Shown one piece after another: positions 22,259 to 44,264 of a stretch of DNA of 54,858 bases (the first letter of the stretch is position 1; every line of letters starts with the position of its first letter). Below the pieces are notes generated by a model. It made no database searches and was not told the DNA's origin. It saw nothing but the letters and a program-made list of their open reading frames with translations. The DNA comes from Candidatus Omnitrophota bacterium (GTDB lineage: Bacteria; Omnitrophota; Gorgyraeia; Zapsychrales; Zapsychraceae): NCBI GenBank assembly GCA_020053475.1, contig JAGVNC010000043.1, positions 1-54,858 of the forward strand, written 5' to 3'. The translations under genes and the position numbers were made by a program.

Positions 22259-23644
22259 ATGATCAATATGCATCTTCATATCGATAAAACAACTATTCTT
22301 AAACATGACGTGGCCGGCCCGCGCTACACCAGTTATCCGGCGGCCCCAGCGTGGAATGAGGACGTCACCTCAGAGGTTTATCAGGAGAGGTTAAAAAAAT
22401 TTGGGGAATCGGCGAAGACACTTTCGCTTTATTTCCACCTTCCTTTCTGCCGATCATTGTGCACATTTTGCGCCTGCAATGTCATTATTCGTCAGCCGGA
22501 TGAAAAATATGGCAATGAATACAACGCTTATCTTCTAAAGGAAATGGCAATGGTGAGCCAGGCCATTGGGAAAAAAATGACGGTTAAGCAGCTTCATTGG
22601 GGCGGAGGGACACCCACATTTTTAACTGAACTGCAAATGGAGAAATTGTTTTTAAGGACCGAAAAACATTTTAATATCGACAAGGAAGGGGAAATTGCGA
22701 TTGAAATCGATCCACGAACGATCAGCTTTGATAAGCTTAAATGCTTGCGTCAGTTGGGATTTAACAGGATTTCGTTAGGCGTCCAGGATTTTAACGCTAA
22801 GGTTCAACAGAGCGTTAATCGCATTCAGCCATTTGAGGTCGTTGAGCGTTGTACAACGTGGGTCAGGCAATTAGGATTTAAATCAATCAATTTTGACCTT
22901 ATTTATGGGTTGCCTCACCAGACAACGGAAAGTTTTCGTAAAACAGTTGATTTAGTCATGACTCTGAAGCCTAATCGCATCGCGCTTTACAGTTTTGCGT
23001 ATTTACCTTGGCTGAAAAAACATCAGCGTAAAATGGATTTATCTTCTTTGCCAACTCGTGAGACAAAGTTGGATATTTTTCTTTTGGCTCGTGATATTTT
23101 TGTCAATGATGGATATCAAGCCATCGCGATGGACCATTTTGCGTTAGCCGACGATGAATTAGCCCAAGCGTTTAATGCCGGCAAACTTTATCGCAATTTT
23201 ATGGGATACACGGTCAAGCCAGCGGATGAGTACATCGGGTTGGGGGTGAGTTCTATCGGATTTTTTGAAGACGCGTTCATTCAAAATCATAAAATATTGC
23301 GCGACTATTACGAAACGCTTGATAAAGGCCAATTGCCTGTTGAACGGGGAAAAATTCTAAGCCAAGACGACCGTATCCGACAATGGGTCATTCATTCGTT
23401 CATGTGCCATTTTGAAATTAATAAACGGGAATTTAAGGATAAATTCTTCGTTGATTTTGATGAATATTTTAGTTCAGAACGGGCTCATTTGAATCGTTGT
23501 CTAGAAGATGGATTAATTTGCATGAAGCCTGATCAAATTACCGCCTCAGGCTTGGGAAAAATTTTTATCCGGAATGTTTGCATGGGGTTTGATGCCTATT
23601 TGCCTCAAATGCAAAAAACAACTCGTTTTTCACAAACGGTTTAA
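22259..23644 (+). CDS. hemN: Oxygen-independent coproporphyrinogen III oxidase
   Basis: GPRYTSYPAAPAW, CRSLCTFCACN, HWGGGTPTFL. Confidence 0.94.
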   Translation: MINMHLHIDKTTILKHDVAGPRYTSYPAAPAWNEDVTSEVYQERLKKFGESAKTLSLYFHLPFCRSLCTFCACNVIIRQPDEKYGNEYNAYLLKEMAMVSQAIGKKMTVKQLHWGGGTPTFLTELQMEKLFLRTEKHFNIDKEGEIAIEIDPRTISFDKLKCLRQLGFNRISLGVQDFNAKVQQSVNRIQPFEVVERCTTWVRQLGFKSINFDLIYGLPHQTTESFRKTVDLVMTLKPNRIALYSFAYLPWLKKHQRKMDLSSLPTRETKLDIFLLARDIFVNDGYQAIAMDHFALADDELAQAFNAGKLYRNFMGYTVKPADEYIGLGVSSIGFFEDAFIQNHKILRDYYETLDKGQLPVERGKILSQDDRIRQWVIHSFMCHFEINKREFKDKFFVDFDEYFSSERAHLNRCLEDGLICMKPDQITASGLGKIFIRNVCMGFDAYLPQMQKTTRFSQTV

Positions 23645-23647
23645 TGT

Positions 23648-23998
23648 ATGCAAGAACAACGTGCCACTCGTCGTCATCCGATTCAATTAGCAGCCTCGTT
23701 TGGGGTCGCGGAAGATCCTTACTCTGATCTAAACCCTCAGGTTCTTAATATCTCCTCGGGGGGATTTTGCATCTCTTCTCTTCAAAAATTTAAGGTCAAT
23801 CACCCCTTGCAGATCGTCATTCAATTGGACGATGAGCCGGTGACGTTGAATGCCCGTGTCGCCTGGTGTCAATCTGAAAAGAAGCCTTCCCGCTATAAAG
23901 TCGGAGTTCAATTAACGGAAACGAACGGAGCGGATTTCAAAAAATTTTATAAATTCTACTGCAAGCAAGTGAATAAGATAAAGCCTCCTCGTCAATAA
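23648..23998 (+). CDS. PilZ domain protein
   Basis: RATRR (RxxxR) and NISSGG (NxSxxG). Confidence 0.85.
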   Translation: MQEQRATRRHPIQLAASFGVAEDPYSDLNPQVLNISSGGFCISSLQKFKVNHPLQIVIQLDDEPVTLNARVAWCQSEKKPSRYKVGVQLTETNGADFKKFYKFYCKQVNKIKPPRQ

Positions 23999-24046
23999 TT
24001 ATCCATCCGCGCGCTCTAGGATTTCTTGAACCTAAGATAGGATCGA

Positions 24047-25042
24047 ATGGCCCAGTTCCTTTTGTTAGAAGCTTTTGAAGGCACCAACAAAAAAATCCCT
24101 GTTTGGTTTATGCGTCAGGCCGGGCGGTATTTGCCAGAATATCAGCGGTTAAAAGCGAAATATTCCCTGGAAGACCTCTTTAAGACGCCTGATCTCGCCG
24201 CGCAAATCACCTGCATGCCCATCGGGATTTTAGGGGTTGATGCCGCCATTTTATTCGCGGACATTCTAACTCTCCCATCTGCCATGGGGTTTGACATCAA
24301 ATTTGATAGTCAAAACGGCCCGATTGTAAACTCTCAATTTGATATTAAGGCAATTCATGATTTTAAAGATTTGTCACACGTTACGAAAGCAATCCAGCTG
24401 GCGAACCAATCCTTGCCTAAACATATCCCCTTGATTGGCTTTGCCGGATCTCCTTATACGGTGTTAACGTATTTGTTAGAAGGAGGGAGTAGCGTGTCTT
24501 TCCACAAAACCCTTCGTTTTATTGAGGAAAATGAGAAAGCCTTTCATGCGATCATGGAACAATTAACGCACAATACTATCCGCTATTTTCAATTGCAAAA
24601 AGAAGCGGGGATTAAAGTGTTTCAATTGTTCGACCCGTGGGCCGGCCAACTGCGCGCTGCTGATTATGCGCATTGGGTGTTGCCTTGCGTTAAACATATT
24701 TTAAAAGCTGTTGATTTGCCGTCGATTTATTTTGTCAAGAATTCCAACCATTTATTGTCGTTGATGGACCAAACCCAGGCGGATTTCTTGTCGGTCGACC
24801 ATACCGTCATTTTGGGCCACAATCACGTTATTGAAAAAACAAAGAAGGGGATTCAGGGGAATTTGTTTAATGGGCTTTTGTACGCCGACAAGGAGACGTT
24901 AGAGCGGGAAATCCATGATGTCGTGGTCGGCGGCCTTAAGCATAAACGGTTCATTTTCAACTTAAGCCACGGTGTTTTTCCCGATGTCGATGTCAGCACA
25001 TTAAAGTTTATCGTTGATAAAGTTCATCAATATTCCGTCTAG
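24047..25042 (+). CDS. hemE: Uroporphyrinogen decarboxylase
   Basis: PVWFMRQAGRYLPEYQ, GFAGSPYTVLTYLLEG, NLSHGVFPD. Confidence 0.96.
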   Translation: MAQFLLLEAFEGTNKKIPVWFMRQAGRYLPEYQRLKAKYSLEDLFKTPDLAAQITCMPIGILGVDAAILFADILTLPSAMGFDIKFDSQNGPIVNSQFDIKAIHDFKDLSHVTKAIQLANQSLPKHIPLIGFAGSPYTVLTYLLEGGSSVSFHKTLRFIEENEKAFHAIMEQLTHNTIRYFQLQKEAGIKVFQLFDPWAGQLRAADYAHWVLPCVKHILKAVDLPSIYFVKNSNHLLSLMDQTQADFLSVDHTVILGHNHVIEKTKKGIQGNLFNGLLYADKETLEREIHDVVVGGLKHKRFIFNLSHGVFPDVDVSTLKFIVDKVHQYSV

Positions 25043-25044
25043 AG

Positions 25045-26412
25045 ATGAAAAAACAAATCGTCATTATTGGCGCAGGGATCAGCGGATTAAGTCTTCTGCA
25101 CTACCTCCATCAGCGTTATCTGGACAGGGAAGATGTTCAACTAACGCTGTTAGAAAAGAATGATTATGCCGGGGGGACCATCCGTTGTCTCCAGGAAAAT
25201 CGATTTCTTTTTGAGATGGGGCCCAACGGGTTTTTAGACACCAAGAAGCGCAGTCTTGAATTAGTTACCCATTTGCAGCTTACCGAGCGCCTCTTACAGG
25301 CCAGCCAGCAGAATCAAGTTCGTTATATTAATATTGGGCGTCAGTTGCACGCAATTCCCCAAAATCCCGGTGAATTTCTATTTACAAAATTGTTTACGTT
25401 GGGACAAAAATTACGGATTCTGGCTGAATGGATGATCCCTCGCCGGCCTAAGGAGGATGATAGTGTTTTTGAATTTGCTCGCCGCCGGTTAGGAAAAGCC
25501 TTTGCTGAAAAAATTTTTGATCCCATGGTTTCGGGAATCTATGCGGCCAATAGTAAACAATTGAATTTACGGGCCGCTTTTCCTACCCTCTACGAATGGG
25601 AAAATAAATATGGTTCACTATTAAAAGCGTTCATCAATATCAAGCGAGAAAAAAGAAAAGTCACTGGCTCACAAAGGGGATCCCCTGGGGCATTGATGTC
25701 GTTTGTCAATGGGATGCCTGAGATTGTCACGCGGATAGCGTCATTGTACAAAAGAAACATTCAGTTTAATCGTGACGTGCGCTCCATTTTTTGTGAAAAA
25801 GGTGTTTACTTGATTAATGCTGATGGCCAAAAATACAATGCCCACGAGCTTTACGTGTGCTCGCCGGCCTACGCGACAGCAGGGATTATCAGGGGGATGG
25901 ACGTTCATCTGTCTCAGGGGTTGGGACGTATCAGTTATGCTCCTGTCGCGGTTGTTGGTTTAGGGTATCGGAAAGAAGATATTCAAAAAATCCCACGAGG
26001 ATTCGGGTATTTGGTCCCTTCCAGTGAACAGAAGGAAGTCATCGGTGTTATTTTTGAGAGCAATATTTTTTCCAATCGATGCCCTTATAGTTCCATGTTG
26101 TTTCGCGTGATGCTCGGTGGGATGCACCATCCGGACATCCTGAAAAAGACACAGCAACAACTTGTCCTCGCTGCCTGTCGAGAAATAGAAACAATGTTTG
26201 GCATCAGCGCCCAGCCGGAACATCAATCGTTCGTTCGCTGGGAGAAAGCCATCCCTCAATACGATCAAGATTATGTGGCGGTTATCGCCGACATCAAAAA
26301 AGGCCTGTCGCGATGGCCCAATTTATTTCTCGTTGCGAATTATGTTAATGGCGTTTCTTTCAATGACTGCATTGAAAATGCTTATCAGGCAAGCCTCCGA
26401 TCAAATTGTTAG
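25045..26412 (+). CDS. hemG: Protoporphyrinogen oxidase (HemY/HemG type, FAD)
   Basis: IVIIGAGISGLSLLHYL, GPNGFLD, ANYVNGVSFNDCIENAY. Confidence 0.93.
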   Translation: MKKQIVIIGAGISGLSLLHYLHQRYLDREDVQLTLLEKNDYAGGTIRCLQENRFLFEMGPNGFLDTKKRSLELVTHLQLTERLLQASQQNQVRYINIGRQLHAIPQNPGEFLFTKLFTLGQKLRILAEWMIPRRPKEDDSVFEFARRRLGKAFAEKIFDPMVSGIYAANSKQLNLRAAFPTLYEWENKYGSLLKAFINIKREKRKVTGSQRGSPGALMSFVNGMPEIVTRIASLYKRNIQFNRDVRSIFCEKGVYLINADGQKYNAHELYVCSPAYATAGIIRGMDVHLSQGLGRISYAPVAVVGLGYRKEDIQKIPRGFGYLVPSSEQKEVIGVIFESNIFSNRCPYSSMLFRVMLGGMHHPDILKKTQQQLVLAACREIETMFGISAQPEHQSFVRWEKAIPQYDQDYVAVIADIKKGLSRWPNLFLVANYVNGVSFNDCIENAYQASLRSNC

Positions 26413-26585: not shown

Positions 26586-27707
26586 ATGATCCGTTCACTA
26601 TTACAAAAAAATTTGATTATCCGCACGTTAGCGTCGTTAAGGATTACGACTGCCTGTTTATTTTTGCTGTTTATCCTCACACTCTGGGGAACAATCGCTC
26701 AAATTGATCAGGGGCTTTACCAAGCGCAGCATCGGTTTTTCTTTCCCTGGGGATTTGCGGCTTTAGGATTTATTCCTTTCCCCGGGGCAAAACTGGTTTT
26801 GTGGGTTTTATTTATCAATCTGATGTGCGTCACCATGGTACGTTTTGTTTTTAAGTGGTCTTATTTAGGGATTCTTGTCATTCATCTAGGGCTTTTGACT
26901 TATTTTGTAGCTGCATTGATCACCTATCAATCCATGAAGGAATCGAATGTTACGCTTCTCGAAGAAGGGGGAACAAATCTTTCTTCATCTTATATGGATT
27001 GGGAGATTGCGCTTTGGAAATCCGAAGAAACCAAGGAACGCCACACGACAGCCTTTGATGTGAAGAATCAGAGGGAGGAAGTGGTTTTGCCGGGGCCTAA
27101 AATCAAGATTTTTTTTGAAACGTATTATCCCAACGCTTCTGCCTTCACGGCCCAAGGGGAAATTCCGGAGAGTGGCGTATTGAATGTTTCCGGAATTGTG
27201 TCGTTGACCGCAAGGCCACTGGAACGCGAGCCGGAGAAAAACATTCCGGGCGTGGTCCTCAAGATTGAAGATTCTCTTGAAAAGAAGCATCATGTGATTT
27301 TATTCGGCTCCGAAATCAACCCCACGACAATTGCTGTTAATGGCCAAGCTTATCATGTCCAGCTACGGCGCAAACGATTCGTCTTACCTTTTGTCATTAC
27401 ATTAAAAGAATTCACCAAGAAAATGCATCCCGGGACCGAAATTGCGAAAAGTTATCAGAGTTTGGTTTCGATCAGCCATGACGATGTGATCCGAGATGTT
27501 TTAATTTACATGAACCACCCGTTACGCTTTAAAGATTACACTCTTTATCAGGCGTCTTATTCGATTGATCAAATGGGGCGCGAACGTTCCACGTTAGCTG
27601 TGGTGAAAAATTCCGGAAAATTTTTACCGTATGCCGCCAGTTTAATTACATTCGCGGGGCTTGTCATCCACTTCTTATCCATGGCGTTTAAGGGAAGGCA
27701 ACGATGA
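26586..27707 (+). CDS. resB: ResB-like cytochrome c biogenesis protein
   Basis: N-terminal TMs (LASLRITTACLFLLFILTLWGTIAQ), large extracytoplasmic domain, C-terminal TM; overlaps ccsA. Confidence 0.85.
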   Translation: MIRSLLQKNLIIRTLASLRITTACLFLLFILTLWGTIAQIDQGLYQAQHRFFFPWGFAALGFIPFPGAKLVLWVLFINLMCVTMVRFVFKWSYLGILVIHLGLLTYFVAALITYQSMKESNVTLLEEGGTNLSSSYMDWEIALWKSEETKERHTTAFDVKNQREEVVLPGPKIKIFFETYYPNASAFTAQGEIPESGVLNVSGIVSLTARPLEREPEKNIPGVVLKIEDSLEKKHHVILFGSEINPTTIAVNGQAYHVQLRRKRFVLPFVITLKEFTKKMHPGTEIAKSYQSLVSISHDDVIRDVLIYMNHPLRFKDYTLYQASYSIDQMGRERSTLAVVKNSGKFLPYAASLITFAGLVIHFLSMAFKGRQR

Positions 27708-29602
27708 AAAGGTTTAACTTATTAGCTTTTCTAATCATTATCCTCGTTTTCGTCAAAGAGGGGGTTGCCCAAACAGGAACGGGTGAAATCAAACCGTTGG
27801 GCGTTAAATCTGTTCAATCGTTGGCCGATGTGCCCATTTTAGAGAATGGGCGGATTAAGCCACTGGATACGTTCGCGCGGAATCTATTGCTGCGTTTCTC
27901 CGGGAAAACTTCTTACGAGAAAACAAGCGCCCTATCCTGGGTTATTAAGCTTTTATTCGCCCCGGATTTAACCCGTGACGATAAAATTTTTCTCATTAAT
28001 CATCCTGATATTATCGAAAGCCTGGGATTAGAGCCTGAAAAAAAACGTCGTTACAGTTTAAATCAACTGGAACCGGCCCTTGAAAAATTAACCCCCTTGG
28101 CGGCGTCGGCGCAGAAGATTGATCCCAAGGACAGAGACATCGCTGAGCAAGAGGTTATCCGCCTTTTTGAGAATCTTCAACTTTATGCGCGATTGTCATT
28201 TAATTTTTCTTTTGCATTCCCGCACGTCGACTTTCGCATTAAAGATCCCCAAAATCTTCAAGAGTTAAAATTGCCTGATCATGTTAAACAGTTTAGTTAT
28301 TTGGATTTAGCTCTCCGCGCGGAACAATTACAATCATTGATAAAGCCTTTGGAACAAAAGCCGCCTCACCAATGGACTAACGCTGACAGAGAAATTTTCC
28401 AAGCGATCAACAATCTTTTTCAGTGGACGCAATTCTACCATGACTTGCCATTGCCAATGATCCCTGATTATCGTTTGGAGAAGGAGGATTGGTATAGCCC
28501 TTGGGACATTGCGGCAATCGCATTAACGATCCCGCAAGGTCGCGACGAAATGGTCGCATTGAGGGATATGATGGCCGCTTATTGGAATGGGCAGCAAATC
28601 TCTTTTGATTTAGCCGTTAAAACATTCAAACATTCCGTATTGAAACGATTAAAGGAATCAAACCCGCATATCCTTAAAAGTATTCCTCTGGAGCTGTGGT
28701 ATAACAATCTTCAATTGTTAGCATGGGCGAAAGTTTTTTATTTGTTCATCTTTTTTCTTTTTTTGTTAGCCTTAGCGCATCGCAAAAGTTGGTATTATAA
28801 AATAGCCTGGGGATTTTTAGCTTTAGGAGGAGGGCTGCATGCGTTAAGTCTTTTGATGCGCATTACGATCATGCAGCGCCCCCCGGTCACTAGTTTGTAC
28901 GAAACATTTATTTTTGTTTCTTTTGTGATTTTTTTAGCCGGAACGATCATTGAAAAAGTCCATCGCCAATGGCTGGGCCTGGTGATTGCCAGCTTAGGAG
29001 GGGCGATCTTTTTAACGATTGCGGAAAAGTTCGCCAGTGAAGGGGACACACTGCAAATGCTGGTCGCTGTCCTTAATTCGAATTTTTGGTTAGGGACGCA
29101 TGTGCTAAGCATTACCACAGGATATGCCGGAATCTGTGCCGCCGGAATTATTGGTCACGTTTATCTTCTACAATCCATTTTCCAACGGAATAATAAACCA
29201 CTTTTAGATTCGACATCGCGTATTCTTTTGGGAACATTGGGATTTGGCTTAACCATGACGTTCTTGGGGACAAATTTGGGCGGGATTTGGGCTGATCAAT
29301 CTTGGGGGCGTTTCTGGGGGTGGGACCCTAAGGAAAACGGGGCGTTGATGATCGTCTTATGGACTGCTTTACTTTTTCATCTCAGGGTTGGTAAAATGAT
29401 AGGAAGTTTAGGGTTAGCGGTGGGTAGCATTTTAGGAATTATGGTCGTGATGTGGGCTTGGTTTGGCGTTAATCTTTTAAGTGTTGGCTTGCATTCCTAT
29501 GGATTTACTTCCGGCTTAGCGACCAATTTAATGATTTACGGCATTATCCAGATGTTATTTATTCTAATCGCCTATCCTTTGGCCCGTCACAAAATTCGAT
29601 GA
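27704..29602 (+). CDS. ccsA: Cytochrome c biogenesis protein CcsA/ResC with large N-terminal domain
   Basis: WWD-type motif WGRFWGWDPKENGALMIVLW; multiple TMs. Confidence 0.9.
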   Translation: MKRFNLLAFLIIILVFVKEGVAQTGTGEIKPLGVKSVQSLADVPILENGRIKPLDTFARNLLLRFSGKTSYEKTSALSWVIKLLFAPDLTRDDKIFLINHPDIIESLGLEPEKKRRYSLNQLEPALEKLTPLAASAQKIDPKDRDIAEQEVIRLFENLQLYARLSFNFSFAFPHVDFRIKDPQNLQELKLPDHVKQFSYLDLALRAEQLQSLIKPLEQKPPHQWTNADREIFQAINNLFQWTQFYHDLPLPMIPDYRLEKEDWYSPWDIAAIALTIPQGRDEMVALRDMMAAYWNGQQISFDLAVKTFKHSVLKRLKESNPHILKSIPLELWYNNLQLLAWAKVFYLFIFFLFLLALAHRKSWYYKIAWGFLALGGGLHALSLLMRITIMQRPPVTSLYETFIFVSFVIFLAGTIIEKVHRQWLGLVIASLGGAIFLTIAEKFASEGDTLQMLVAVLNSNFWLGTHVLSITTGYAGICAAGIIGHVYLLQSIFQRNNKPLLDSTSRILLGTLGFGLTMTFLGTNLGGIWADQSWGRFWGWDPKENGALMIVLWTALLFHLRVGKMIGSLGLAVGSILGIMVVMWAWFGVNLLSVGLHSYGFTSGLATNLMIYGIIQMLFILIAYPLARHKIR

Positions 29603-34751: not shown

Positions 34752-35816
34752 ATGAAACAAATATATGTCATCGGGATTAATCACAAAACGGCCCCTCTCG
34801 AAGTCCGTGAGAAATTTTATTTGTCTGAACCGCAACAAGACTTGTTGTTAAGTGAGTTAAAAAGTCTTCCCGCCGTTCTCGAGGCTTTTGTCATCTCCAC
34901 TTGCAATCGAACTGAAATCTATGTCAATCTTCTGGAAACATTTGATCCGGCGGTTTGCCTTTTACCCGTTTTATGCGCGGTAAAGAAAATCCCTCAGGAT
35001 GTTGATTTAGCCAAAATTTTCTATGTCCATAAAGACCAAGCTGCTGTCCGCCATTTGTTGGAGGTGGTCAGTGGGTTGGATTCGTTGGTTTTAGGAGAAA
35101 AGCAGATTTTAGGGCAGGTTAAACTAGCCATTGATCGCGCCCGCCAGCAAAATATCCTTCACACCAAATTTAACATTTTAAGTAACATTGCTATTCGTGC
35201 GGGGAAAAAAGTCCAAACAGAGACAGCAATCGGCTGGGGAGGGTCTTCTGTGAGCTGGGCCGCCATCGTTAAAGCCGAAGAAATTCTAGGGACATTAACG
35301 GACAAGACGATTTTAATGATGGGGGCAGGGAAAATGAGTGATTTGGCTGTTGGGCAAATCCAAAACAAAAATTTTAAAAAGTTATACATGATGGACCGTA
35401 CGGAAGCCAACGCCTGCGCGTTGGCTGAAAAATACGGAGGGGAAGCTGTTAGCTTTTATGATTTAAAAGATATTTTGCAAAGGATTGACCTTTGCATTTG
35501 TTCGACCAGTGCTCCTCATTATATTTTAGAGAAATCTATTGTCGCAAAGATTATGCCGCAAAGAGAATCTAACCCGCTTATCCTGATCGATATTTCGATG
35601 CCTCGCAACATCGACCCTCAAGTTGCCACAGTGCCAGGGGTTCTTTTATTTTATGTTGATGATTTGCAAGCTGTTGTTGACTCCACCATGAAAATTCGCC
35701 ACCATGCGATCCCTAGCGTTGAAAAGATTATTGCGCAAAAGCTCTCAGAGTATCAATCCAAAATCCAACAACCTCAGTCGCAATTCTATTCGGGCATTGA
35801 ATCATCGCGCGAATGA
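34752..35816 (+). CDS. hemA: Glutamyl-tRNA reductase, short C-terminus
   Basis: GINHKTAPLEVREK, STCNRTEIY, GLDSLVLGEKQILGQVK. Start revised to ATG 34752. Confidence 0.93.
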   Translation: MKQIYVIGINHKTAPLEVREKFYLSEPQQDLLLSELKSLPAVLEAFVISTCNRTEIYVNLLETFDPAVCLLPVLCAVKKIPQDVDLAKIFYVHKDQAAVRHLLEVVSGLDSLVLGEKQILGQVKLAIDRARQQNILHTKFNILSNIAIRAGKKVQTETAIGWGGSSVSWAAIVKAEEILGTLTDKTILMMGAGKMSDLAVGQIQNKNFKKLYMMDRTEANACALAEKYGGEAVSFYDLKDILQRIDLCICSTSAPHYILEKSIVAKIMPQRESNPLILIDISMPRNIDPQVATVPGVLLFYVDDLQAVVDSTMKIRHHAIPSVEKIIAQKLSEYQSKIQQPQSQFYSGIESSRE

Positions 35817-35868: not shown

Positions 35869-37203
35869 ATGAATGTCCTTTGTTTAATTCTTTTTGCCTT
35901 TCTCGTCAACATCCCTTGCGGTTATTGGCGCGAACAATGCCCTAAATTTTCCTGGAAATGGTTCTGGTGGATCCACGCGTCGATTCCTTTTATCATCTTT
36001 ATCCGCCTGTCTTTAGCCATCCCTAGCATTTTTATCCCCATTAGTATATTCTTTGCCATTGTCGGCCAAATTGTCGGGAGCCGTTGGAAACGCCGACGCA
36101 TGTCTCAGGAAGAAAAAGAGGCTTTAACGCAAATCCCCGATCTAGAGGTTTCTTCAAAACGGAATTTTGTTAGTGACCGTGATGTCATGGTTGTTTTGTT
36201 AAATATGGGCGGGCCGCGGCGCAATAAGGATGTCCCTGAATTTCAAAAACATCTTTTTTCTGATTCACTGTTGATCCGATTTCCCTTGTCATTTTTATTC
36301 CAAAAACTATTTGCTTGGTTGTTAATTATTTCCCGCGCAAAAGCAACACAGCAACGCTATCAACTGATTGGAGGAGGAAGCCCTATTTATCGATCCACAG
36401 CCCATCAAGCCCAGGCGTTGCGTAAAGAATTAAAGAAAAGAGGGCGTTCTTTGGATGTGACATTTGGATTTAATTACAGCCCGCCTTATCCGGCGGATAC
36501 CATCCATAAGCTAAAAAATGCCGGGAAAAAGTATCTTTTGCCGGTAAGCCTCTATCCCCATTATTCCAAGGCCACGACCGGGTCCAATCTTCATTATTTA
36601 AAGAAAGCGGCTCGAGATATTGAGCCCTCCCTAAAGTTCCTGCCATTGAGCCCTTATTATTTACACGATGGATATATCCAGGCTTTTTGTGATCGTATCG
36701 CGGAACAGATTGCCCCCGAAGAATCTTTGGATGATTTTTATTTGCTTTTTTCCGCCCATGGATTGCCTCTTTATTTTTTGGCAGAAGGGGACCCTTACCC
36801 TTTCCAGATTTCTCAAACCATCGCCCAAATTTTGGCTAAACTGAACCGTACGCAAAATTGGTCCATCTGTTATCAAAGTGCGGTGGGCCCATTGCAATGG
36901 CTTAAGCCATCGACAAATGATATGCTTCACGCATTAGCCCAGAGAGGAATCGCTAAAATTTTAGTTGTTCCTATTTCTTTTGTGGGTGATCATATTGAAA
37001 CCACCTGTGAAATCGACATCGAATACCGTCATATGGCAATGCAGAGGGGAATCAAAGATTTTCGGATGGCCAAGGCCATTGAACATCATCCGCGTTTTAT
37101 TGAGGCTTTAGCAGACAGCATTGAAAGGATATTGCCTTTTGGTGCCGGACAAGAAACTGTCACTTTTTATTCGAAGTTTTCGCAAGAATCTTCGGTTCCT
37201 TAA
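35869..37203 (+). CDS. hemH: Ferrochelatase with N-terminal membrane domain
   Basis: N-terminal hydrophobic segments (PCGYWREQCPKFSWKWFWWIHASIPFIIF...), then ferrochelatase: LLNMGGPRR, FSAHGLP, ISFVGDHIETTCEIDIEY. Confidence 0.92.
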   Translation: MNVLCLILFAFLVNIPCGYWREQCPKFSWKWFWWIHASIPFIIFIRLSLAIPSIFIPISIFFAIVGQIVGSRWKRRRMSQEEKEALTQIPDLEVSSKRNFVSDRDVMVVLLNMGGPRRNKDVPEFQKHLFSDSLLIRFPLSFLFQKLFAWLLIISRAKATQQRYQLIGGGSPIYRSTAHQAQALRKELKKRGRSLDVTFGFNYSPPYPADTIHKLKNAGKKYLLPVSLYPHYSKATTGSNLHYLKKAARDIEPSLKFLPLSPYYLHDGYIQAFCDRIAEQIAPEESLDDFYLLFSAHGLPLYFLAEGDPYPFQISQTIAQILAKLNRTQNWSICYQSAVGPLQWLKPSTNDMLHALAQRGIAKILVVPISFVGDHIETTCEIDIEYRHMAMQRGIKDFRMAKAIEHHPRFIEALADSIERILPFGAGQETVTFYSKFSQESSVP

Positions 37204-37226
37204 ATATAACAAAAGGAGAGAGGACA

Positions 37227-37538
37227 ATGATCACTAAAGTATATTTACTTATTTATGGGTTGTTGCTTTTAGGCGGGGCTTACGGAGGATGGAAAGCCGG
37301 GAGTAAAGTTTCCTTGATGATGGGGCTAGTTTCCGGTGTTGCCATTTTGTTGAGCCTGGCGATTTCCATGCAAAATTCTTCTTTGGGGTATGGGTTGTGC
37401 ACAGGGATCAGCGGCCTTCTGACAATCGTGTTTATTATTCGTCTTTTGAAAACACATCAATTGATGCCTTCCGGGATGTTGCTAGCGATCAGCGTTCTGG
37501 CGTTGATTGTCAGTGCCAAAGCTTTATTAGAAAAATAA
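37227..37538 (+). CDS. TMEM14-family small membrane protein
   Basis: Four TM segments; YGLLLLGGAYGGWKAGSKVSLMMGLVSG is typical of Tmemb_14. Confidence 0.8.
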   Translation: MITKVYLLIYGLLLLGGAYGGWKAGSKVSLMMGLVSGVAILLSLAISMQNSSLGYGLCTGISGLLTIVFIIRLLKTHQLMPSGMLLAISVLALIVSAKALLEK

Positions 37539-37557: not shown

Positions 37558-37779
37558 TTGGGAACCCCCTTGGGAAAAGAATCCCCAAAGTATATAAAAC
37601 TACTGGCCCCGTTAAACATAGGGTTGAATATCATGGCAGGCATGATCGTATTTACGTTGATCGGTTATGCGATAGACCTCCGGCTGGAAAGTTTTTATAT
37701 CGCGACATTGCTGGGGATTGGGGTCGGTTTGTTTTATTGTTTTTACGAAATTTGGAAGCTCACCAAGATAGAGCAGTAA
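37558..37779 (+). CDS. AtpZ/AtpI-like protein
   Basis: Two-TM protein at the head of the atp operon (NIGLNIMAGMIVFTLIGYAIDLRL); TTG start. Confidence 0.7.
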   Translation: MGTPLGKESPKYIKLLAPLNIGLNIMAGMIVFTLIGYAIDLRLESFYIATLLGIGVGLFYCFYEIWKLTKIEQ

Positions 37780-37787
37780 TATTCTTT

Positions 37788-38165
37788 ATGAACCCACGGC
37801 AAGCCGGTATATTTTTACTCATAACCTGGATAGGGATTTATCTTGCGGACCAGGTTTTCCTGAAAACATCTTTGGGGATCATGGCGTGGAAAGGGTGGGC
37901 GATAGCGAGTTTAAATGTCGTTTTAGATGTCTTGATGCGGCATTTTAATCAAGATCGGCAGACACCGATCTTTATCATTTCATTTTTTAAGGTGACATTT
38001 TTGCGGTGGTTTGTCGTTTTATCGGCGATTACGCTCGTTTTGTGGCGGATGGAGGCGCGGGACACGTATCCGTTTCTGATGGCCTTTGGTACCTGTTATT
38101 TTTCTTATCTTTTTACATGTATTGCCTTTTGGCATTTCAAAAACATCTCTTATGGACGATCTTAA
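37788..38165 (+). CDS. AtpI-like membrane protein
   Basis: Four-TM small protein between atpZ-like and atpB; start revised to ATG 37788. Confidence 0.5.
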   Translation: MNPRQAGIFLLITWIGIYLADQVFLKTSLGIMAWKGWAIASLNVVLDVLMRHFNQDRQTPIFIISFFKVTFLRWFVVLSAITLVLWRMEARDTYPFLMAFGTCYFSYLFTCIAFWHFKNISYGRS

Positions 38166-38928
38166 AGGCCAGTTCGCGTTAGACCAGTACATTATGAATC
38201 ATGTGCAAAATGCTCAGCAATGGCATTTGCCGTTTTTGCCGCCAATACACCTTCCTGGGTTTTTAACGCTTCATGGATTAATGTTGTTAATAGCGACAGG
38301 GCTTCTTTTGATTCTTTTGTTGCGGCCCCGCCACGCCGAGTCGCGTATCCCTTCCAAATGGGGCAATGCCCTTGAAATACTCGTTTTGTTTATTAGAGAT
38401 GAAGTTGCCGTACCGTGCTTGGGGCCTGAAGACGGAAAGAAATTGACCCCATTGTTTTGTACGTTTTTTATTTTCATTTTGTTTTTGAATTTGATGGGGA
38501 TGATCCCTTTTTTCTCCACGGCCACGGCGAATTTCAATGTCACAGGTGCTTTGGCGCTGATCACATTATGTTTTATGATCTTTGGGGCCATGTACAAAAA
38601 TGGCATTAAAGGTTTTTCCCATGCGTTAATCCCTTCCGGTGTTCCTGTGCCTCTTCTTTTTCTCTTGGTCCCCATCGAATTTGTGGGCCTATTCATTAAA
38701 GCCTTCGCGCTCATGATCCGGCTTTTTGCCAATATGCTGGCCGGCCACATTGTTATTCTTGCGTTGTTGGGGCTCATTATTATTTTGGGATATTTTACGT
38801 TGCCGTTTATGTTTGTGATGGCGTTGGCCATTTATTTATTGGAAGTGTTCGTGGCTTTTCTCCAGGCATATATTTTTACGCTTTTGTCGGCGATGTTTAT
38901 TGGGCTTATGTATCACCCTGCCCATTAA
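38152..38928 (+). CDS. atpB: ATP synthase subunit a
   Basis: IKAFALMIRLFANMLAGHIV motif; start revised to ATG 38152. Confidence 0.95.
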   Translation: MDDLKGQFALDQYIMNHVQNAQQWHLPFLPPIHLPGFLTLHGLMLLIATGLLLILLLRPRHAESRIPSKWGNALEILVLFIRDEVAVPCLGPEDGKKLTPLFCTFFIFILFLNLMGMIPFFSTATANFNVTGALALITLCFMIFGAMYKNGIKGFSHALIPSGVPVPLLFLLVPIEFVGLFIKAFALMIRLFANMLAGHIVILALLGLIIILGYFTLPFMFVMALAIYLLEVFVAFLQAYIFTLLSAMFIGLMYHPAH

Positions 38929-39028
38929 AAGAAGCGTAAAACTGAATTCACGTCTTTACACGCCGCAAGGCGATAACTATAATAAGGTTAAATTTAATCA
39001 TTCATTAAACAAAGGAAAGGAAATTCAT

Positions 39029-39259
39029 ATGGAAGCAACACTCCCTTTAGGGTTATTTGCAGGTATTGGGGCTGGGTTAGTGGCTATTGGAGCAGGGATC
39101 GGCATCGGCCGATTAGCCGCTTCAGCGTTGGAGGGGATGGCCCGGCAACCCGAGGCTTCAGTCAAGCTGCAAACTGCCATGCTTATCGCGGCGTCTCTCA
39201 TTGAAGGCGTCGCTCTGTTTAGTTGTGTCATCTGTCTTTTGACAATCATCTTGAAATAA
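39029..39259 (+). CDS. atpE: ATP synthase subunit c
   Basis: GAGIGIGRLAASALEGMARQPEA hairpin and LIEGVALFS ion-binding Glu; start revised to ATG 39029 after AAGGAAAGG. Confidence 0.95.
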   Translation: MEATLPLGLFAGIGAGLVAIGAGIGIGRLAASALEGMARQPEASVKLQTAMLIAASLIEGVALFSCVICLLTIILK

Positions 39260-39277
39260 TCAACATCAATTTTTTAT

Positions 39278-39814
39278 ATGAACGAAACTCTGAATGTAGC
39301 GCAGCCATTGCATCATCCCGAGGAGGGCCAGAACACGTTATTGGCTCCTGACGCGGCTTTGTTGCTTTTGACGTGGATCACGTTTTTTACTCTTTTGGTG
39401 GTCCTGTATAAAACCGCCTGGAAGCCGATTTTAACGGCGCTTGAAAAGCGTGAAGCCATGATCCGCAAGGCTGTTGACAATGCTGAAGACGCTAAAAATC
39501 AATTGGCCAAAATCGCTGAGACGCGCGGACAGCTTATTAAAGAAGCCGATCGGGAGGCCCGAGAAATCGTTGAAGCCTCGCGCAAAGCGGCTGTTGAGGC
39601 GGCCAAGGTCATTGAGCATAAAGCCGAAGAACAAGCGCAGATCATCCTGGAGAATGCCCAGCGGGAAATTAAAGAAGCAAAAGAAGAGCTTGTTGCTGAT
39701 CTAAGAAGAGAAAGCGCTCAGGTCGCGGTCCAATTGGCCGAGAAAATTTTGGAAGAAAATTTAAACAACGAAAAAAACAATAAAATCATCGATCAGTTTA
39801 TCAAAAATTTATAA
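39278..39814 (+). CDS. atpF: ATP synthase subunit b
   Basis: Single TM plus long charged helix; position in operon. Confidence 0.92.
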   Translation: MNETLNVAQPLHHPEEGQNTLLAPDAALLLLTWITFFTLLVVLYKTAWKPILTALEKREAMIRKAVDNAEDAKNQLAKIAETRGQLIKEADREAREIVEASRKAAVEAAKVIEHKAEEQAQIILENAQREIKEAKEELVADLRRESAQVAVQLAEKILEENLNNEKNNKIIDQFIKNL

Positions 39815-40347
39815 TGGCTTCTATTGTTGCAAAACGGTATGCGTTGGCTTTCTATCAATTAGCGGAACAGTCTAACAAAATTGATGCTGTCACTAAAGAT
39901 GTTAAGCAGTTGGCTCGTCTAATTAAGGAAAGTGAAGAGTTTAAAAGATTTATTGATAATCCTGTTATCTCATCGATCAAGCGCTCCCATATCCTTAGGG
40001 ATTTGTTGCAAGGCTCCCTGGACGAATTAACACTTCGTTTCCTTATTTTTCTTGAATACAAAAAACGGTTTTCTTTCCTGCCTGGAATTTGCGCTTGTTT
40101 CGAAGAGCATTTTCTTCAGGCCCACAATGTTGCCCGTGTTGTGGTCGTCAGCCGCCAGAAACTTTCCGAATATCAAGTCAAAAATCTCGAAGCGCGATTC
40201 CAGCAAAAATTTAAGCAGGACATCCTTTTAGAGCAGAAGATTGATGAAAAACTCATCGGAGGGATTAAACTCCAATATGGTGATACCATTTATGATTACA
40301 CGTTACGCAAACACTTAGATCGATACAAAGAGGCTGTTTTAAAATGA
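39814..40347 (+). CDS. atpH: ATP synthase subunit delta
   Basis: [18 protein letters not shown]-terminal [18 protein letters not shown]. Confidence 0.93.
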
Positions 40348-40357
40348 AGGGAAGGGT

Positions 40358-41872
40358 ATGAATAAAATCAAACCAGCAGAAATTTCTCGCGTTTTACAGG
40401 AACAATTGGCCGACTTTGAAAAACGCATTGAAACCTATGAGGTGGGGACTGTCTTAAGTGTCGGCGACGGGATTGCCCGCGTTCATGGGCTGAATGCCAT
40501 CATGGCCGGCGAGCTTGTGGAGTTCCCGCATAAGATTAGGGGTATGGCCCTTAATTTGGAAGAAGATAATGTGGGGATCGCTATTTTCGGTGAAGATACA
40601 CACATCCGTGAAGGTGATCAAGTCAAACGCACGAAACGCATTGCGGCTGTCCCTGTTGGAGATGGATTAAGAGGGCGGGTTGTTGATGCACTGGGCCAAA
40701 CGATCGATGGATTGGCGCCTATTGAATCTAAAGAGCTTCGACAAATCGAAGTGAAAGCCCCGGGAATTATCGATCGTAAAAACGTCCATGAGCCCCTGCA
40801 AACAGGGATTAAAGTTATTGATGCGTTGACGCCGATTGGGCGCGGGCAGCGTGAGCTGATCCTTGGTGATCGAAAAACAGGAAAAACAACGTTGGCGGTT
40901 GATACCATTATCAACCAGCGAGGCGAAGGGGTCTTTTGTTTTTATGTCGCGATTGGGCAAAAACGCTCCACGGTAGCGCAGGTTTATGAAACATTGAAAA
41001 AATACGGCGCCATGGAATACACAACCATCATTGCCGCGACAGCGTCTGATCCTGCGCCCATGCAATTTTTGGCCCCTTATTCGGCAACGGCCATGGCGGA
41101 ATTTTACCGTGATAGCGGCCGGCACGCGCTGATTATTTACGATGATTTGACGAAACAGGCCCAAGCGTACCGGCAATTGTCCTTGTTGTTGCGCCGCCCG
41201 CCGGGACGCGAAGCTTTTCCGGGGGATATTTTTTACCTGCACAGCCGGTTGTTGGAACGCGCCGCCAAAATGAGTGACACAAAGGGAGCCGGAAGCCTCA
41301 CCGCCTTGCCTATTATTGAAACCCAAGCCGGAGATATTTCAGCCTACATTCCCACAAACGTCATTTCAATCACCGATGGTCAAATATTCTTGGAATCAGA
41401 TTTGTTTAATGCAGGACAACGGCCAGCCATTAACCCGGGATTATCTGTCTCCCGTGTCGGAGGCGATGCCCAGATTAAAGCGATGAAGCAAACAGCGGGG
41501 ACGTTGCGTTTGGATCTGGCACAATACCGCGAGCTGGAGGCTTTCTCCCAATTTGCTTCGGATTTGGATGAAGCCACGCGCAAACAATTAGAACGCGGGA
41601 AGCGGCTCATGCAAATCATTAAACAAGGAGTTCATGAACCATTGCCTGTTGTCAAACAGGTGGCCATTATTTATGCGGGGGTCAATGGATATCTCGATGA
41701 CATTCCCGTGACACAAATCAAAGAATTTGAAACTCAGCTTTTGGATGCGCTGGATTCCAATTACACTGACTTTGTTCGTTTGTTTAATAAGGAAAAAGCC
41801 TTAACCCAACCCCTGAAGGCCGCGTTGGATCAATTGCTAACCGAATTTAAGGCCCGATTCAAAAGAACATAA
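40358..41872 (+). CDS. atpA: ATP synthase subunit alpha
   Basis: [14 protein letters not shown]-loop, [30 protein letters not shown]. Confidence 0.97.
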
Positions 41873-41874
41873 CC

Positions 41875-42744
41875 ATGCCGAGCATAAAAGAATACAACAT
41901 CAAATTGCGCAGTTTAAAAAATACCCAAAAAATTACAAAAACCATGAAAATGGTTTCGGTCAGTAAATTGCGTAAAGCCCAGGAAGCCCAGGCGAAAGCC
42001 AAACAATACGCCCAAACAATTACGGAGCTGATCACACGCATTGTGGGCTCCGTTGATGATTCGTTGCATCCTCTTTTGCAATCCAAAGAGCATCTTAAAA
42101 AAGCCCTTATCCTTGTTTACACCTCCGATAAAGGGCTGTGCGGAGGGTTTAATAATAACGCCCATCAAGAAGCATTGCTGTGGATTAACCAGAATCGTAC
42201 CCGTTATTCGGCAATTGAGGTTAGTTGTGTGGGCCGTCGCAGTTACATGTTCTTTCAACAAAGGGAGAAAGTAAGAAAATATTACAAAGATTTTAGCGGT
42301 GATCCGCAATTTGATCGGGCCATGGCGATTGGGGAAGACCTTACCGAATATTTTTTAAATAATGAATACGGCGAAATTTTCATCGTTTATAACCAATTCT
42401 TCAGCCCTCTTTCCCAGAAAGCTGTTTTTCAAAAGATTATTCCTGCCGAACCGGAGGAGATTGTTAAAAAAAATGGCGGCATGGTGAGGGATTATCTCTT
42501 TGAACCGTCGGCCAAAGAATTATTAAATTTTCTCATTCCGCACTTTCTTTATTTTAAAATTTATTTTGCTTTTCTCGAAAATTGGGCAGGGGAACACGGA
42601 GCTCGCATGACCGCGATGGATAACGCGACAAAGAATGCTTCCGATTTAATTGATCGGTATACATTATTACGCAATCGCGCCCGGCAATCTCAAATCACAA
42701 CGGAATTAACGGAAATTATCTCCGGTGCTGAAGCCATTCAATAG
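41875..42744 (+). CDS. atpG: ATP synthase subunit gamma
   Basis: N-terminal KLRSLKNTQKITKTMKMVSVSKLRKAQ; C-terminal RARQSQITTELTEIISGAEAI. Confidence 0.96.
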   Translation: MPSIKEYNIKLRSLKNTQKITKTMKMVSVSKLRKAQEAQAKAKQYAQTITELITRIVGSVDDSLHPLLQSKEHLKKALILVYTSDKGLCGGFNNNAHQEALLWINQNRTRYSAIEVSCVGRRSYMFFQQREKVRKYYKDFSGDPQFDRAMAIGEDLTEYFLNNEYGEIFIVYNQFFSPLSQKAVFQKIIPAEPEEIVKKNGGMVRDYLFEPSAKELLNFLIPHFLYFKIYFAFLENWAGEHGARMTAMDNATKNASDLIDRYTLLRNRARQSQITTELTEIISGAEAIQ

Positions 42745-42785
42745 GTTTTTTATGAAAGGCCTGACGCTTACTAAATAATTTTCTA

Positions 42786-44264
<1,479 letters not shown>

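Follow-up and report, generated by a model that had tools for sequence, protein, structure and literature searches.

The question raised by this locus is whether a bacterial TMEM14-family protein, encoded directly behind a ferrochelatase with a membrane domain, takes part in heme synthesis, and how old such a role might be. The substrate of TMEM14 proteins is unsettled, with porphyrins considered for animal mitochondria and fatty acids for plastids. A bacterial lineage that keeps TMEM14 in a heme operon, behind a ferrochelatase with a membrane domain of its own, offers a simple organelle-free system for testing that substrate. The stretch analysed here (the window, 54,858 nucleotides) is the entire contig C8 of an Omnitrophota draft genome of 2.03 Mb that is 96% complete. 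On its forward strand hemA, hemH, a TMEM14-family gene and the ATP synthase operon, whose gene order is the same in relatives, follow one another, and hemN, hemE and hemY lie upstream together with the cytochrome c maturation genes resB and ccsA (Table 1). HemA, rightly placed just upstream of hemH in the preliminary description, matched PF05201 and PF01488, and the C-terminal dimerisation domain PF00745 was not detected in it by the domain search. The genome carries three HemA copies in all, two of which adjoin multiheme cytochrome gene clusters, on contigs C38 (L245) and C35 (L246).

Table 1. Coordinates of the heme, TMEM14 and ATP synthase features in the window
Feature	Position	Strand	Evidence
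hemN, hemE, hemY	22259..26412	+	Radical_SAM/HemN_C, URO-D and Amino_oxidase matches
resB and ccsA, system II cytochrome c maturation	26586..29602	+	PF05140 and PF01578 matches
hemA, glutamyl-tRNA reductase	~34752..35816	+	TIGR01035, E 5.7e-102, covering positions 1-335 of 416
N-terminal domain (NTD) of HemH, predicted three-helix membrane domain, residues 1-77	35869..36099	+	Homologues, AlphaFold2 helices, dN/dS
HemH linker, residues 78-104	36100..36180	+	Low model confidence; raised dN/dS
Ferrochelatase domain and C-terminal tail	36181..37203	+	PF00762; fold match
TMEM14-family (PF03647) four-helix membrane protein	37227..37538	+	PF03647, E 2.5e-15
atpI-like gene and F-type ATP synthase operon	37558..44264	+	PF09527 match; atpB, E, F, H, A, G, D frames

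We examined the enzyme encoded by hemH (35869-37203, 444 residues). PF00762 spans residues 108-420 with an E value of 8.7e-95 and 317.8 bits against a curated cut-off of 27, and TIGR00109 scores 273.8 bits against 124.6; the core begins at about residue 105-108. The active-site motifs SAHGLP (His297) and DHIET (Glu377) are intact, and both catalytic residues are invariant across 21 HemH relatives. The closest solved fold to the model is human ferrochelatase (Foldseek E value 2e-26, 32% identity, TM score 0.82 by target length). By score, catalytic residues and fold, the window HemH is a member of the ferrochelatase family, with iron insertion as its predicted reaction.

The extension with hydrophobic segments in front of a complete ferrochelatase, noted in the preliminary description, is present, and it measures about 105 residues and not 90. 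AlphaFold2 places helices at residues 2-21, 29-36/38-49 and 55-77, most of them at pLDDT 75-93, and assigns low confidence to the linker around residues 91-100. Basic residues flank the helices (R21, K26 and K30, and R72-R77), a pattern that suggests a topology with the N-terminus outside and the enzyme in the cytoplasm. The three predicted helices and the conserved fusion bear out the description of a membrane-domain HemH. The NTD matched no Pfam or NCBIfam family in the domain searches; a weak match to heme exporter protein B (E value 0.089) was taken as chance, as were those to ArlX and KASH.

It could be argued that the extension is untranslated and that hemH starts later, since no clear ribosome-binding site was seen before the ATG at 35869. 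An earlier start is not available, because the frame is open just three codons above this ATG (447 versus 444 residues). A later one is highly improbable and is refuted by the sequences themselves: in close relatives the NTD is under purifying selection, with dN/dS values of 0.07-0.20, compared with 0.06-0.12 for the enzyme, the fused open frames run to 425-464 residues across three families, and the NTD is homologous to stand-alone proteins. This conservation of the extension makes a later start untenable. The linker shows dN/dS values above both flanking domains in the majority of pairs.

The NTD is fused to HemH in 15 genomes from three families. In a first sample, the window's family had five genomes with ferrochelatase, and whole-genome searches found the fusion in every one; the order survey described below added further copies, some from family f53 and a divergent copy from f3 among them. 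Eight stand-alone NTD proteins were also found: seven genomes from other families encode one of some 80-90 residues, and genome G241 has a further copy. The domain thus occurs unfused in other Omnitrophota; it was absent from the 32 genomes of other phyla that were searched. In the hemH tree each of the two deep branches includes fused proteins, fitting an ancient fusion with several losses, and some HemH proteins that lack the NTD retain the linker.

These relatives with a linker and no NTD are what would be expected if the NTD were an unspecific membrane anchor, free to decay or be lost, with no role in heme handling; we consider this an even matter, and it is compatible with our preferred reading of TMEM14. 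The fused proteins of G211, G220 and G222 agree with it: motif residues, His36 and Arg46 among them, are missing there while the hydrophobicity is kept. The stand-alone genes agree as well: contrary to the expectation that stand-alone copies would be found near heme genes, none adjoins them. However, the window's family retains the full motif N..G..R....S..W....H...P.....R....GQ..G, which is more than hydrophobicity would require. Two of the Omnitrophota genomes with stand-alone NTD genes have CbiX-family chelatase genes tail to tail with them (L019, 8431-9265; L022, 7526-8618).

The gene behind hemH starts after 23 bp, is preceded by a strong ribosome-binding site (AAAGGAGAG) and encodes 103 residues. 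PF03647 scores 57.4 bits against a cut-off of 24.8, and the model contains four helices (residues 2-24, 27-49, 51-76 and 82-102; pLDDT 83.6), in agreement with the four-segment TMEM14 protein described before; a Foldseek search with this model gave no significant match among solved folds. A profile of the TMEM14 proteins of the window's order matches human TMEM14C (2LOS) at an E value of 3e-12, compared with 2.6e-8 for TMEM14A. The proteins of the order form one separate clade (support 94/89) and have diverged to about 40% identity.

We then compared gene neighbourhoods across 83 genomes of this order of uncultured Omnitrophota. Ferrochelatase was found in 39 genomes, TMEM14 in 25, hemA in 54 and atpB in 62, absences resting on draft genomes. 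In 24 of its 25 genomes TMEM14 is found behind hemH or hemA in the same orientation, the sole unlinked case being G248. It follows hemH in 17 genomes, 16 times directly and once, in G244, after 547 bp, and in the other seven it directly follows hemA, hemH there having moved or being missing. G244 aside, the linked genes overlap by 16 bp at most and stand no more than 139 bp apart, with overlaps or gaps below 15 bp in 13 linked cases. Linkage to hemH spans six families (f1, f3, f4, f52, f53 and f54). Recurrent linkage to heme genes thus holds within the order. Both findings that the preliminary description named as counting against it, a later hemH start and the lack of recurrence, failed to appear here. 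An earlier phylum-wide survey of 191 genomes had yielded only two linked cases and by itself would have pointed to no recurrence, a picture that the order-level survey overturned. In some genomes of the order the cluster hemH gives way to a second, distant ferrochelatase type, which is mostly encoded elsewhere in the genome; examples are found in G121, G206, G207 and G241 (L070, L241, L240 and L221), and in G121 it is about 25% identical.

Ferrochelatase is found in 23 of the 25 TMEM14 genomes (Fisher p=3.5e-8, kinship ignored), and hemA in all of them. The two membrane elements are separable: seven genomes have a fused HemH and no TMEM14, and several others have TMEM14 and no NTD, so neither depends on the other.

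Since TMEM14 also adjoins atp genes in most genomes of the order, a membrane or ATP-synthase role is conceivable. TMEM14 could be a part of the ATP synthase operon, a small protein beside AtpI serving Fo assembly or ion balance, with the heme genes merely upstream. The linked gene usually stands just ahead of that operon, its next neighbour being atpI, atpB or a gene of the Na/H-exchanger family, and all 25 TMEM14 genomes carry atpB. However, the association with hemH persists among atpB-bearing genomes (Fisher p=6e-6), whereas among genomes with hemH the association with atpB is weak (p=0.06), kinship being ignored in both tests. Of the 26 genomes that carry atpB without hemH, 24 have no TMEM14, and the remaining two possess other heme genes. 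In G222 a block of hemA, the NTD-hemH fusion and TMEM14 stands apart from the atp operon, whereas in G248 hemH abuts atpB and TMEM14 is sited elsewhere. We therefore regard an ATP-synthase role as unlikely. TMEM14 also remains with hemA where hemH has left the cluster (G206, G207, G216 and G217). At L015 (5291-6985), L205, L208, L217 and L221 the interval separating TMEM14 from the atp genes encodes a protein that joins a Na/H-exchanger domain to a PTS EIIA domain.

Outside the order the picture differs. A pattern scan of 85,462 species genomes, which misses divergent proteins such as the window's own, returned 65 TMEM14 loci, mostly from cyanobacteria, Melainabacteria, Verrucomicrobia, Planctomycetes and Myxococcales, with few Omnitrophota. 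Flanks of up to 10 kb, some shorter (mean locus 15 kb), were searched by tblastn with hemH, hemA, hemE, hemN, hemY, hemB, hemC, hemD and hemL. Heme genes were found only at L076, which is the linked contig of G107, a genome of the window's family; the 64 other loci gave no clear heme gene in these flanks, the lone weak match being a hemL-like aminotransferase in L135 (29% identity). Ferrochelatase is present in 25 of 32 such genomes, so the missing linkage does not result from gene absence. TMEM14 genes from other Omnitrophota orders likewise have no heme neighbours at their loci, and our literature search found no papers on bacterial TMEM14 with heme genes. The recurrence of the linkage stands for six families of one order and was not seen at the loci searched in other orders and phyla. 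Among the scanned loci, TMEM14 of Obscuribacterales adjoins genes resembling succinate dehydrogenase subunits (L077, L085, L087, L099 and L100), and L094, L095 and L102, labelled Akkermansia and Methylacidiphilum, have almost the same TMEM14 protein in almost the same surroundings, pointing to a mislabelled bin.

The varied, clade-specific neighbourhoods of TMEM14 elsewhere could mean that the protein is a FAX-like carrier of fatty acids or lipids that stands among the heme genes through inherited gene order, with no bearing on function and no connection to the HemH anchor. FAX1 of plants, another member of the family, is a fatty-acid exporter (PMC4344464), and every linked case belongs to one clade. 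Nevertheless, the pair has been kept despite the divergence of TMEM14 and changes in its neighbours, and TMEM14 presence tracks hemH; we find the carrier of fatty acids rather doubtful. Linkage, co-occurrence, the NTD fusion in three families and the closer profile match to TMEM14C speak for a heme role, with a weight that we judge to be moderate.

Our preferred reading, in which we place middling confidence, is that an anchored HemH completes heme at the inner membrane, a step that TMEM14 would serve by handling porphyrin or heme. The NTD would hold the cytoplasmic ferrochelatase at the inner membrane, as its predicted helices and topology suggest. TMEM14 would most probably move or hold hydrophobic porphyrin(ogen) or heme between HemY, HemH and the ResB/CcsA exporter. 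In a bacterium all heme steps can run in the cytoplasm, so no porphyrin need cross the membrane. Specific transport by TMEM14 is a tentative prediction. Equally speculative is the fuller proposal that TMEM14 is a porphyrin(ogen) or heme carrier in contact with the anchored ferrochelatase, in which case the involvement of TMEM14C in heme synthesis is either older than mitochondria or has arisen on two occasions within the same family. In mammalian work, TMEM14C is needed for protoporphyrinogen IX import and was proposed as the transporter (PMC4673221). Another study suggests, on weak evidence, that it belongs to a heme complex centred on FECH; in a table passage there it is seen in a single column and stands at zero in the others (PMC4545792). 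The authors of work on Toxoplasma gondii could not directly demonstrate porphyrin transport (PMC7511413).

Regarding age, the preliminary description suggested that a porphyrin-handling role of TMEM14 may be old. An old, general link between bacterial TMEM14 and heme is not supported: the proteins of the order are one clade and heme linkage is missing at the loci searched elsewhere, so one recruitment explains the data better. From the single clade we infer a single origin; the arrangement would have arisen in the ancestor of this order and been kept beside hemH or hemA in six families.

Finally, we compared the locus with known systems. Relatives such as G071 (L071), from the same Omnitrophota order, have the same arrangement of hemA, hemH and atp genes but neither the NTD nor TMEM14. 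Human TMEM14C shares PF03647 with the window protein, is its best profile match and is implicated in protoporphyrinogen IX transport; it shifts its substrate between mitochondrial compartments, whereas the bacterial host has none and transport here is a prediction, and a genomic link to heme is seen within this order only. Plant FAX1 belongs to the same Pfam family but differs in its plastid fatty-acid export and in having no heme link. The CAB ferrochelatase of cyanobacteria and plants is likewise fused to a membrane-spanning (HLIP-like) domain, in its case a C-terminal helix with the chlorophyll-binding motif ExxNxR (PMC8529089). The window HemH instead has three predicted N-terminal helices, no photosynthesis genes were seen, and ExxNxR was not found in it, which sets it outside the CAB type. 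PufQ of Rhodobacter sphaeroides is a small membrane protein that interacts with ferrochelatase and for which a part in fixing that enzyme to the membrane and directing porphyrin flux was proposed (PMC5725709); unlike the NTD, it is a separate single-helix protein linked to bacteriochlorophyll synthesis, and no sequence relation was noted. The NTD, from an unnamed family, would thus be a third tie of ferrochelatase to the membrane, besides the CAB helix and PufQ.
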